Translations under genes and position numbers: made by a program
In this document: positions 1-9,107 of the stretch, in pieces
Layout: each line of letters opens with the position of its first letter
Numbering within the stretch: the first letter of the stretch is position 1
DNA from: Cellvibrionales bacterium
Lineage (GTDB): Bacteria > Pseudomonadota > Gammaproteobacteria > Pseudomonadales > JAHEIH01
Reading direction: 5' to 3'
NCBI GenBank assembly: GCA_024639455.1
Contig: JAHEIH010000027.1
Span: forward strand, 139,477-178,821
Length of the DNA stretch: 39,345 nucleotides
The notes under the pieces: generated by a model
Database searches by the model: none
What the model was told of the DNA's origin: nothing
The model's input: only the letters and a program-made list of their open reading frames with translations

Positions 1-416
1 CTCAACAAAGTAATAGCAACGCAGCTAAATAAAAACTTAGAAGCGTCAGCGAGGCCGCTAGTACGCGGCGAGCATGTATTTTGCGAGAGGAGTTTAGGTA
101 TTACTAAATGACTTGAGCAAAATGCATGCTCAACAAAGTAATAGCAACGCAGCTAAATAAAAACTTAGAAGCGTCAGCGAGGCCGCTAGTACGCGGCGAG
201 CATGTATTTTGCGAGAGGAGTTTAGGTATTACTAAATGACTTGAGCAAATGCATGCTCAACAAAGTAATAGCAACGCAACTAAATAAAAACTTAGAAGCG
301 TCAGCGAGGCCGCTAGTACGCGGCGAGCATGTATTTTGCGAGAGGAGTTTAGGTATTACTAAATGACTTGAGCAAAATGCATGCTCAACAAAGTAATAGC
401 AACGCAGCTAGCTTCT
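1..416 (-). repeat. Tandem array of 127/128-bp structured repeat units
   Basis: Units begin at 1, 129, 256 and 384 on the plus strand. The third repeat carries one substitution (GCAACGCAAC for GCAACGCAGC) and the second lacks one A in a short A run. The last, partial unit joins a distinct end, so the unit next to ribA, read on the minus strand from 416 to 294, is 123 bp and starts AGAAGCTAGC. Later units start with an A/T-rich linker instead. Each unit contains a 15-bp inverted repeat (GAGCATG...CATGCTC) around a smaller TTTAG/CTAAA hairpin, and a GCCGC/GCGGC hairpin. The array runs off the left edge, so its copy number is unknown. The same family occurs at 8903-9025. Confidence 0.93.
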
Positions 417-1002
417 AATCTAACAGATGGCCGAGCTTGCCTACCTTAGTAGCAAGGTACTTTTGGTTGTGACTATTGTGCCCAGTCTTAAGCGGCATCC
501 GCTCAGCTACCACCACACCCAATCCTTCGAGGGCCGCCACTTTACGGGGATTGTTGGTCATCAGTCGCACGCTATTGATTTGCAGATGATCACACATGGT
601 GCGGCACATGCTGTAGTCGCGCATATCGGCGTCGAAACCGAGTGCTTCGTTGGCTTCGACAGTATCGGCCCCTTCGTCTTGCAGATGGTAGGCACGGATT
701 TTGTTTAACAGTCCAATACCACGGCCCTCTTGGCGCAGATAGAAAATAACTCCACGGCCAACCTCGGCGATTGCCTGCATTGCAGCTTGTAACTGCGAGC
801 CACAGTCACAGCGCATGCTGAACAGGGCGTCACCGGTCAAGCATTCTGAGTGGATACGCGCCAGCACTGGCTCGTTGCCGGTAAGATCACCCATAGACAA
901 CACCACGTGCTCTTTGCCGCTGGCCAAATCTTCAAAACCATGCATTTCAAACACACCGAAGGGGGTCGGCAATTGTGAGGACTCAACAAAACGTACGCTC
1001 AA
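415..1002 (-). CDS. ribA: GTP cyclohydrolase II
   Basis: RibA opens the GTP ring to give formate, pyrophosphate and 2,5-diamino-6-ribosylamino-pyrimidinone phosphate, the first step on the GTP branch of riboflavin synthesis. The zinc cysteines C54, C65 and C67 are visible ([15 protein letters not shown]), followed by the RQEGRGIGL motif. At 195 aa it has the length of the stand-alone enzyme and is not a RibBA fusion. The start codon is TTG; a GGAG ribosome site lies 8 nt upstream and no nearer ATG fits. The gene is last in the minus-strand rib/nusB/thiL run. Its TAG stop overlaps the first bases of the adjoining repeat element, but the C-terminus (GKLGHLL) looks normal for the family, so the protein is probably intact. 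Confidence 0.96.
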
Positions 1003-6994: not shown

Positions 6995-7215
6995 TAATTT
7001 TCCCTCTGGGTATTGAGCGATAAAAATAAGCTGCGAATTGTACACGAAACGCAGCCCCAACGGCACATTATGTAGCTTTAAATTTAGATTTTTTAGGCAG
7101 TTGCGGACTGTTTAAAAGCGACACATAGATATTGCAATGCGCAACGGTACAATCTGGCTTTAGGGCAGTGTTATACTCACGCCACTCCAAGCCTGCTACC
7201 CACAAAGGAATACCC

Positions 7216-8874
7216 ATGGCACAGTTTGTCTACAGCATGAATCGGGTGAACAAAATTGTCCCCCCAAAACGCCACATCCTCAAAAACATCTCCCTGTCAT
7301 TCTTCCCGGGCGCCAAAATTGGTGTACTGGGTTTAAACGGCGCGGGTAAATCGACCCTGCTCAAAATCATGGCCGGTATCGATGCCGACATCGACGGTGA
7401 AGCGCGCCCCATGCCCGGTATCAAGATCGGCTACTTGGCGCAAGAACCACAGCTAGATATGGACAAAGACGTGCGCGGTAACGTTGAAGATGGTGTGCGA
7501 GAAGCGCTGGACGCCTTGGCAGCACTTGATCAAGTGTACGCCGATTACGCCGATCCCGATGCCGATTTCGACAAACTGGCCAAACGCCAAGCCGAGTTAG
7601 AAGACGTGATCAATGCCTGGGACGCCCACAACCTCAATCACCAGCTGGAAATCGCCGCCGATGCGCTACGTCTTCCCCCTTGGGACGCCGATGTCAGCAA
7701 ACTGTCCGGCGGTGAAAAACGCCGCGTAGCGCTGTGCCGCCTACTGCTATCTAAGCCAGACATGCTGCTACTTGACGAACCCACCAACCACTTGGACGCC
7801 GAGTCGGTAGGCTGGCTAGAGCGCTTCCTGGTCGACTTCCCCGGCACTGTGGTGGCGATTACCCACGACCGCTACTTCCTCGACAACGCTGCCGGCTGGA
7901 TCCTCGAGCTCGACCGTGGCCACGGCATTCCCTACGAAGGCAACTACACCTCGTGGTTGGAACAGAAAGAAGCTCGCCTAGAGCAAGAACAGCGCAGCGA
8001 AGAAGCACACACTAAAGCGTTGAAACACGAATTAGAGTGGGTACGCCAAAATCCCAAAGGCCGCCACGCCAAAAACAAAGCGCGCTTGGCACGCTTTGAA
8101 GAAATGCAATCGCGCGAGTTCCAAACCCGCAACGAGACCAACGAAATATACATTCCACCGGGCGAGCGCCTGGGTGACAAGGTCATCGAGTTCAACAACG
8201 TTAGCAAGGGGTTTGGTAACGAACTGCTGATAGAAAACCTCAACATGAGCATCCCCAAGGGAGCCATCGTAGGCATTATCGGCGGTAACGGCGCGGGCAA
8301 ATCCACCCTATTCCGTATGATAGCCGGCACTGAACAGCCCGATAGTGGTAACATTGACCTAGGCGACACCGTGAAAGTTGCCTTCGTCGAACAGGGCCGT
8401 GAAAACCTCGACGACAAAGCCTCAGTATGGCAAGCCGTATCCGGCGGCTCAGACGTCCTAACCATCGGCAACTACGAAATTCCCTCGCGCGCCTATGTCG
8501 GTCGCTTTAACTTCAAAGGCTCTGACCAACAAAAACGCGTCGGCGAATTGTCGGGTGGTGAGCGCGGCCGCTTGCACTTGGCCAACACACTGAAACAGGG
8601 CGCCAACGTACTGCTACTTGACGAACCGTCAAACGACCTCGACGTAGAGACCTTGCGCGCGCTCGAAGAAGCCATTCAGAACTTCCCCGGCTGCGTATTG
8701 TGTATCTCTCACGACCGCTGGTTCCTCGACCGTATTGCCACCCACATCCTTGCCTACGAAGGTGAAGCTAAATTGACCTTCTTTGAAGGTAACTATACCG
8801 AGTACGAAGAGGATCGTGTTAAGCGATTGGGTAACGAGCCGCCGAAGCGGGTTAAGTACACGAAACTTAAGTAA
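7216..8874 (+). CDS. ettA: Energy-dependent translational throttle protein EttA
   Basis: EttA is a cytoplasmic ABC-F ATPase that binds the ribosomal E site and gates the first elongation step according to energy charge. It has no membrane segments. Both ABC cassettes are complete: Walker A GLNGAGKST near residue 39 and GGNGAGKST in the second half, signatures LSGGEKRRV and LSGGERGRL, and Walker B LLLDEPTNHLD and LLLDEPSNDLD. The arm and linker between them match the EttA subgroup. An upstream extension is open to 7132, but MAQFVYSMNRV is the family start, with AAAGGA 7 nt before it. At 552 aa it is close to the E. coli protein. A terminator follows directly. Confidence 0.97.
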   Translation: MAQFVYSMNRVNKIVPPKRHILKNISLSFFPGAKIGVLGLNGAGKSTLLKIMAGIDADIDGEARPMPGIKIGYLAQEPQLDMDKDVRGNVEDGVREALDALAALDQVYADYADPDADFDKLAKRQAELEDVINAWDAHNLNHQLEIAADALRLPPWDADVSKLSGGEKRRVALCRLLLSKPDMLLLDEPTNHLDAESVGWLERFLVDFPGTVVAITHDRYFLDNAAGWILELDRGHGIPYEGNYTSWLEQKEARLEQEQRSEEAHTKALKHELEWVRQNPKGRHAKNKARLARFEEMQSREFQTRNETNEIYIPPGERLGDKVIEFNNVSKGFGNELLIENLNMSIPKGAIVGIIGGNGAGKSTLFRMIAGTEQPDSGNIDLGDTVKVAFVEQGRENLDDKASVWQAVSGGSDVLTIGNYEIPSRAYVGRFNFKGSDQQKRVGELSGGERGRLHLANTLKQGANVLLLDEPSNDLDVETLRALEEAIQNFPGCVLCISHDRWFLDRIATHILAYEGEAKLTFFEGNYTEYEEDRVKRLGNEPPKRVKYTKLK

Positions 8875-8877
8875 ATA

Positions 8878-8898
8878 AAGGCGCTTCGGCGCCTTTTT
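8878..8898 (+). terminator. Rho-independent terminator of ettA
   Basis: A perfect 7-bp stem AAGGCGC/GCGCCTT with a TTCG tetraloop is followed by a T run. It begins 4 nt after the ettA stop. Bases 8894-8895 of the run also serve as the end of the stem. Confidence 0.92.
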
Positions 8899-8902
8899 GA
8901 TG

Positions 8903-9025
8903 AGAAGCTAGCTGCGTGGGTATTGCTTTGTTGAGCCCCGCTTTCAAAGTCGTCATTTAGACATAACTAAACTCCTCCCTTGCAAGCGGATCTCGCCGCG
9001 CACTACCTGCCTCGCTAACGCTTCT
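8903..9025 (+). repeat. Single 123-bp copy of the structured repeat family
   Basis: This element aligns without gaps to the minus-strand unit 416-294 beside ribA, and both are exactly 123 bp. Its ends form short inverted repeats: AGAAGCTAGC at 8903-8912 and GCTAACGCTTCT at 9014-9025. An internal hairpin has arms at 8933-8947 and 8980-8994, with a smaller TTTAG/CTAAA hairpin inside. Compared with the ribA copy, six arm base pairs are changed on both sides in a compensating way. Like the ribA copy it follows the 3' end of a gene and has the same orientation relative to that gene. Confidence 0.9.
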
Positions 9026-9107
9026 CGGGAAGGCTGTTACTCAATAACGCTTCTAAGGTATTTTACACGCCGCGCACTACCTGCCTCGCTAACGCTTCAC
9101 GGAATTT
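9026..9107 (+). repeat. Degenerate second unit of the repeat family
   Basis: The 31-bp string ending the previous element (8994-9024) recurs exactly at 9068-9098. Before it comes CGCTTCTAAGGTATTTTA (9049-9066), which resembles the CTTCTAAG plus A/T linker that joins units in the array at 1-416. This is best read as a shortened tandem copy. The remaining 80 bp up to the next gene hold only its ribosome site. Confidence 0.7.

Follow-up and report, generated by a model that had tools for sequence, protein, structure and literature searches.

The window analysed here, a stretch of 39,345 nucleotides from a genome assembly of a Cellvibrionales bacterium (GCA_024639455.1, contig JAHEIH010000027.1), carries the gene ribA at its left end and, several kilobases further on, a gene for an ABC-F type ATPase. 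Hairpin elements of 123 nt lie behind both of these genes, and the features concerned are listed below, each with the evidence for it (the models R1 and R2 are defined in the text).

1..35, minus strand: start (5') of another unit, truncated by the window edge and a 100-N assembly gap (sequence)
36..159, minus strand: tandem unit 3 (sequence, R1)
164..286, minus strand: tandem unit 2, without the outer AGAAGC arm (sequence, R1)
294..416, minus strand: full element, unit 1 of the tandem array, overlapped by the ribA stop codon (R1, 145 bits over 291-418)
415..1002, minus strand: ribA (GTP cyclohydrolase II), upstream of the array (Pfam PF00925)
7132..8874, plus strand: ABC-F type ATPase gene, upstream of the element (Pfam PF00005, PF12848)
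8880..8898, plus strand: terminator-like hairpin and T-run between the ABC-F stop and the element (by eye)
8903..9025, plus strand: full 123-nt hairpin element 3' of the ABC-F gene (R1 129.8 bits, R2 97.3 bits)
8933..8947, plus strand: 5' inner arm of the ABC-F copy, pairing with 8980-8994 (recomputed pairing)
8953..8975, plus strand: conserved apical core TCATTTAG-N6-CTAAACTCC (column conservation in 107 copies)
8980..8994, plus strand: 3' inner arm of the ABC-F copy (recomputed pairing)
9068..9102, plus strand: solitary 3'-half copy, 97% identical to 8994-9028 (sequence comparison)

The minus-strand unit at 416-294 and the plus-strand unit at 8903-9025, each of 123 nt, align without a gap and are identical at 90 of 123 positions. 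The original prediction was based on these two units, and every number in it was recovered when recomputed: 14 of 15 arm pairs are formed in one copy and 12 of 15 in the other, and the double changes fall at exactly pairs 6, 7, 9, 13, 14 and 15. The arms themselves are identical between the copies at just 7/15 and 5/15 positions. Shuffling the arms of one copy reached the observed pairing in 1 of 20,000 trials, and this result, together with the further copies, led us to reject chance similarity. It was also correct that both units lie 3' of a gene and in its sense; the ribA stop TAG (417-415) overlaps the first, and the second begins 28 nt past the ABC-F stop (8874), behind a hairpin resembling an intrinsic terminator. 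Beyond what had been described, unit 416-294 heads a tandem array with a period of 128, and a lone 3' half lies at 9068-9102. The array extends past the window into a scaffold gap of 100 N (assembly C13:139377-139476) which directly precedes the window, and hence the number of units is a lower bound. At its far end are degenerate partial units, followed by dxs (named from sequence reading).

A model built from the source genome's own copies (R1) found 18 matches in the 2.88-Mb assembly, a figure that includes reverse-strand echoes and partial units and corresponds to about ten places. Six of these are sense copies that abut or overlap a stop codon: those of ribA, phbA (a thiolase), aceA, rho, and the loci L257 and L258, the last two placed by reading (in L258 the next frame, as called, also extends across the element). 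Three others (ABC-F, L259 and L261) are preceded by a terminator-like hairpin, and the copy in L260 lies between divergent genes. Two of the ten places are degraded; the element of L260 no longer folds as one hairpin and that of L261 is truncated. The inverted ends of the own-genome copies consist only of a short outer stem, which itself covaries (GAAGC/GCTTC, GGGGC/GCCCC in aceA, AAAGC/GCTTT in rho), and no clear target duplication was seen among them. RNAalifold, applied to six own-genome sequences of which two come from the array, gave 41 pairs; for 18 of these, one or more of the sequences have both partners changed. In L257 (1490-1656) the element is followed immediately by the 5' part of another copy, a second tandem start which indicates that tandem arrays arise repeatedly in this genome. 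In the predicted folds of the rho copy (L013:1540-1690) and the aceA copy (L012:1541-1700), the base of the hairpin reaches into the 3' end of the coding sequence, the last codons pairing with sequence behind the element.

The original prediction had proposed a search of the genome and its relatives with the unit and a covariance model, and such a search yields many more copies than those in the source genome. At E<=1e-3, R1 matched 68 of 390 genomes of the order, in 40 of 142 genera. A broader model, R2, was built from 64 copies of many genomes (including one own-genome copy, that of rho in L013, and two from the same genus); it matched 168 of 369 genomes of the class, in 136 of 272 genera, at E<=1e-4, and 84 of 249 genomes of the phylum at E<=1e-5, with 59 of the latter outside the class by our count of the individual results. 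Since these large searches scored 8-14 candidates per genome, the copy numbers that they give are minimum values. Scanning named genomes with the core pattern gave at least 117 stretches, 80 of which are titled; among the matches listed, many are from Pseudomonas, and others are from Halomonas, Salinicola, Methylophaga, Kangiella and Nitrosomonadales, as well as from Desulfobacterales, Alistipes, Rikenellaceae, Bacteroidaceae and one Pedobacter metagenome-assembled genome (MAG). Fifteen genomes picked because they match the core pattern hold from 1 to 146 copies each: 30 and 56 in Alistipes, 46 in Rikenellaceae, 17 and 26 in Bacteroidaceae, 91 in Desulfobacterales, and 146 (among at most 150 candidates scored) in a Nitrosomonadales MAG. 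Many of the copy-bearing genomes are MAGs, and single cases could therefore be misbinned. The copies of the Pedobacter MAG (L107) have scores resembling those of Pseudomonadales-type copies (R1 94.7 bits); this record could therefore be misbinned and should not be counted as evidence for Bacteroidota.

Carriage by phages was considered and rejected with L034, a copy from another genome, as query: it had no match in phage records and 15 in plasmid records, 14 of them from Pseudomonas, none of these matches overlapping an annotated feature. Scanning viral sequences with the ABC-F protein returned nothing, and the core pattern occurs in nine stretches of viral contigs. Rfam had no match in the window and none at the gathering score in five further loci. 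In the Nitrosomonadales MAG (G1031), many contigs (C28, C51, C60, C64, C65, C114, C119 and others) begin within a few bases of a copy, and the repeat thus seems to break that assembly. Some Pseudomonas-type copies (L088, L092, L114, L117, L089, L090) contain an insert of ~16-60 nt, judged by eye, which directly precedes the apical core in the upper arm on the 5' side.

From the primers for the enterobacterial repeat ERIC, we took the central core to be ERIC-like; a 44-nt centre built from these primers matches 5375 of 5426 E. coli genomes. With default filters, R1 and R2 found no ERIC match at E<=1 in two ERIC loci; when its filters were switched off, R2 scored 12.0 and 10.7 bits (E 0.044 and 0.11). 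A third model, R3, trained without ERIC on sources that include six own-genome loci, placed ERIC at the top in every one of four distinct loci, the match extending over the whole model; the scores are weak, at 12.9-16.3 bits with E values of only 0.0013-0.035 (filters off). The core pattern, which was composed once the core had suggested ERIC, occurs in three of four distinct ERIC loci and nowhere in 60 Mb of random sequence. On a megabase scale, a profile of the core based on sequence alone was not significant: ERIC scored -2.6 and -3.5, against maxima of -5.7 to 10.4 in 30 random 2-Mb sequences.

The resemblance is one of architecture as well. ERIC (also IRU or RU-1) is about 127 nt long and forms a single long imperfect hairpin with a central TCA[CT]TTA-loop-TAA[AG]CTCC core, and its GCTGCGT and GCCTT flanks are, by eye, in about the same register. 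It too is often found 3' of genes; of four E. coli loci, two are in sense at 5 nt (cusC) and 0 nt (ybhI) past the stop, that of pgk-fbaA is antisense, and that of ArdC-mobH is in sense but away from a stop. TA termini and a target duplication are reported for ERIC in part of one source (PMC2229807), which may be compared with the YTAR and TNA duplications of other members of the new family, none being clear in the own-genome copies. On the other hand, the stem and end sequences of ERIC are unlike those of the new family, and its host range is given, in a portion of a recent account, as Enterobacteriaceae and Vibrionaceae (PMC10969869). The new family, in contrast, is found in the Pseudomonadales-like order, other Gammaproteobacteria, other classes of Pseudomonadota, Bacteroidota and Desulfobacterales MAGs. 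A paper by Zo (2011) reportedly treats ERIC among Gammaproteobacteria and might extend its range further. From these sequence comparisons, the element family is probably a distant relative of ERIC, not itself an ERIC, and probably constitutes the larger group to which ERIC belongs. More tentatively, ERIC may be the branch found in enterobacteria of a hairpin superfamily that is either ancient or widely transferred and is present in at least three phyla; an enzyme or a host factor would recognise the internal-loop motifs of the folded strand, with stems and ends free to change even where sites are orthologous.

Many members of the family have long inverted ends that fall, by eye, into several unlike classes. 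In one genome of the order (G190), the class-A end pattern occurs 107 times at <=2 mismatches and its reversed control not at all; among the 100 of these 107 sites that were listed, there are 43 nearest converging pairs, 42 of which span 81-311 nt and one 1515 nt. The 1515-nt pair was considered as a candidate insertion sequence and rejected, since it encloses a CvfB-like S1-domain gene and no transposase; its left end is at a stop codon, that of a GSDH-family gene. Four pairs of G190 with ends 81-98 nt apart (C1:2194772-2194869, 2960098-2960178, 3222922-3223019 and 3950403-3950500) are apparently shortened derivatives of the element. Target duplications are of 4 bp (YTAR) in class A and 3 bp (TNA) in class B. 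Exact 4-bp repeats flank 14 of 26 class-A-like copies, but 11 of these are the palindromes CTAG or TTAA and so are uninformative as to direct or inverted orientation; the three exact non-palindromic cases (L068, L122, L125) are all direct, and no perfect inverted-only pair occurs among the 26. Exact 3-bp direct repeats flank 10 of 15 class-B-like copies (two of the 15 being near-identical loci). At the L068 site the congener G761 has no element, its spacer being about 64 nt as against 209 nt, and the element is also missing from two more relatives with a conserved downstream flank; these empty-site spacers are too diverged to define a clean single target.

Inverted ends together with target duplications are the marks of a miniature inverted-repeat transposable element (MITE), and members other than those of the source genome have both. 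Ends shared with an autonomous element were found neither among the G190 end pairs listed nor at 30 transposase loci. The original prediction had suggested a search for a transposase with matching ends, and this came up empty: the PF01609 transposase is absent from 5 of 8 copy-rich genomes, exact words of six end motifs formed no pairs in 30 transposase loci fetched from the other three, and the PF13340 transposase is absent from 13 of 15 genomes. As partners, the DDE_Tnp_1 and DUF4096 transposases were accordingly rejected, being absent or having ends that do not match. Because the inverted ends differ between classes, no single transposase with fixed ends can explain all of them. Of the natures originally proposed (a MITE/REP-like element, a 3'-UTR RNA or a DNA hairpin site), the MITE-like one has thus gained ground for other members, through their target duplications and one case of presence and absence.

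We consider it moderately probable that the element is a copy of a widespread, non-autonomous, MITE-like hairpin family of ~125 nt, distantly related to ERIC, whose transposition, place in 3' UTRs and arm turnover would be as follows. As targets, members would use short TA-containing or TNA sequences (YTAR or TNA), which insertion duplicates; frequently these lie at a stop codon, and there the target and the first letter of the element can together preserve a stop. A DDE-type transposase might act in trans. That the hairpin serves instead as a single-stranded DNA site for a site-specific recombinase or a Y1 transposase, in the manner of attC or of REP/RAYT, seems most improbable. The conserved bulges on a long hairpin and the tandem array at ribA would suit such a site, but the 3-4 bp target duplications of other members would not, and no integron attC box was seen by eye in the window copies. 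Targeting to one replication strand was likewise rejected, there being no bias among 40 matches of one genome (10/11 and 9/10, with the origin assumed at base 1).

The MITE-like reading can be compared with other known systems. Target duplications of the YTAR and TNA types are known from the IS5 groups (IS5, IS427, IS1031), and family members resemble IS5-family MITEs in having inverted ends with such duplications. An element of the IS427 group inserts just before TAA with a TA duplication, according to part of its description (PMC4133298). The new family differs from these in that most copy-rich genomes tried have no PF01609 or PF13340 transposase, and in that, unlike an internally deleted insertion sequence, its interior hairpin is conserved across end classes. 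The REP/BIME repeats associated with RAYT are also palindromic, dispersed and intergenic, and their ends often supply a TAG stop; but REPs, as characterised in sections of the same source (PMC3733652), are 20-40 nt long with a GTAG or CGTC tag, whereas the new family has 125 nt and target duplications. An intergenic repeat of Pseudomonas putida, Ppu-9, which has 57 copies of 124 nt (excerpted account of PMC2267715), fits by its description in length, copy number and genus and could be an earlier sighting of a family member. A literature search on such repeats, whose sources also include portions of PMC2817692, gave no description outside ERIC hosts, although Ppu-9 and the work of Zo (2011) could be partial precedents.

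The position of the element relative to genes was studied in 175 copies, made up of 82 of 85 and 88 of 104 matches (the 16 weakest or partial being omitted) and five own-genome copies, with L257-L261 left aside; the core profile was taken from 143 of the 175, and the orientation counts from 174 after removal of identical and edge cases. By a home-made gene caller, 90 copies follow a gene in the same sense and have no gene call overlapping them; their median distance from the stop is 6.5 nt. Within -15 to +20 of a stop, in either orientation, are 32 of 74 long-ended and 65 of 100 short-stem copies; of non-coding TA sites, 12.9% (818/6364) lie within the slightly narrower window of -3 to +20, which is the expectation from TA content. 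Among the short-stem copies 53 are sense-only and 10 antisense-only, with 2 both (p = 3e-8), while among the long-ended ones 18 are sense-only at a stop, 11 antisense-only and 3 both (p=0.26). The bias fits insertion in either orientation followed by the retention of sense copies; a different insertion mode in the short-stem group is possible.

Such a bias is what one would expect if the element were mainly a structured RNA, selected for its fold in 3' UTRs as an mRNA stabiliser, an RNase substrate or a source of small RNA, with dispersal secondary. By a home-made rule, an intrinsic terminator lies <=110 nt behind 12 of 64 sense stop-abutting copies and, on the matching side, behind 0 of 20 antisense ones, so that at least those 12 lie inside a transcript; this too speaks for a structured RNA. 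Long-ended copies, however, have no such orientation preference, and a T-rich tract at the element's end is present in just 5 of 64 sense copies, for which reason we reject the element as an intrinsic terminator in most cases. We regard the structured-RNA explanation as rather unlikely. In the MITE-like account, short-ended copies such as those of the source genome would come to lie mainly in sense in 3' UTRs, where the transcript would carry a long hairpin that may affect mRNA decay or processing. De Gregorio reportedly obtained an RNase E result on Yersinia ERIC, as relayed by reviews.

The pairing of the arms was assessed in alignments fitted to the model structure (A3, A4 and A5). The original prediction would have been undone by arm changes that break pairing as often as they keep it, or by a lack of further copies; in the 107 copies of A4, 87.1% of 4363 pair cells are paired, as against 60.1% in shuffles and 36-48% when slid. 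There are 1176 double-change cells compared with 326 in shuffles. Double changes occur at 39 of 41 pairs, which is hardly above the 36.1 of shuffles, so that this count of pairs alone says little. The 64-copy set behaves similarly (87.8% paired versus 64.3% shuffled; 612 double-change cells versus 162.5). Around these variable stems, the loop and loop-flanking positions G35 T36 T37, T63 C64 A65, C83 T84 C86 and G113 C114 C115 are among the most conserved, at 97-100%. Within a single genome, whole arm blocks differ between copies and still pair (GCCATTGC/GCACTGGC, GGCAATAC/GTCTTGCC, GCCTGGCC/GGCCAGCC). Three genomes, from three genera and two families, share an orthologous site behind a peroxiredoxin gene, where in each of them the element begins 0-1 nt past the same stop with arms that are unlike between the genomes yet paired; lexA presents the same pattern, a shared stop site with unlike paired arms, in two genomes of one genus. 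Among 31 peroxiredoxin loci tested, two of them known beforehand, five contain the full element, which is at the stop in three and 286 nt downstream in the others; a remnant is present in one more locus, and 25 have none at E<=0.01.

The near-invariant internal loops and the repeated presence behind the peroxiredoxin gene count in favour of a structured RNA. Selection on an RNA should favour G-U pairs, and over all pairs G-T mismatches do exceed A-C mismatches by 275:121. This excess, however, comes from two pairs that are mostly T-G and from a third in which T-G occurs 27 times and C-A once; when the two mostly T-G pairs are excluded the ratio is 116:111, that is, equal at the variable pairs, which fits a process at the DNA level better than selection on RNA alone. 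Such a process is known for hairpins, in which template switching of DNA can alter the two arms simultaneously (described in part of PMC8794818). The original claim that the double changes are hard to explain unless the fold is selected was in this respect too strong, even though pairing is indeed kept far above the level of shuffles.

The covariation might then be largely mutational, a product of template switching or quasi-palindrome correction with no selection on the fold. The exchange of whole arm blocks within a genome and the equality of G-T and A-C would follow from this, as would the fate of one internal loop, TC/TC, which is now GA/TC in 2 of the 107 copies and paired as TT/AA in 12. 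Correction should nevertheless erase such loops, and TC/TC is kept unpaired in 66 of the 107 while other loop positions are conserved at 97-100%. Template switching is moreover expected to invert spacers (PMC8604942), and not one inverted apical spacer was found against 155 distinct canonical cores in the loci gathered here. A largely mutational origin is decidedly unlikely. In the MITE-like account, we propose two causes for the concerted change of the arms, namely that pairing is maintained and that template switching can use one arm to rewrite the other; the unpaired internal-loop motifs are presumably held by selection.

This hairpin repeat family is real and very common, and has the traits of a MITE; what is novel is its breadth, and the turnover of its stems and ends around fixed internal loops. 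It is present in nearly half of the Gammaproteobacteria sampled and reaches 146 copies in one of the genomes picked because they match, yet it had no Rfam match in the window and five loci. It offers many natural replicates for asking whether the covariation of stems comes from selection on RNA or from template switching of DNA, and it warns against taking covariation by itself as proof of a functional RNA. For its hosts, it is a mobile repeat that is tied to the stop codons of genes, those of housekeeping genes included.
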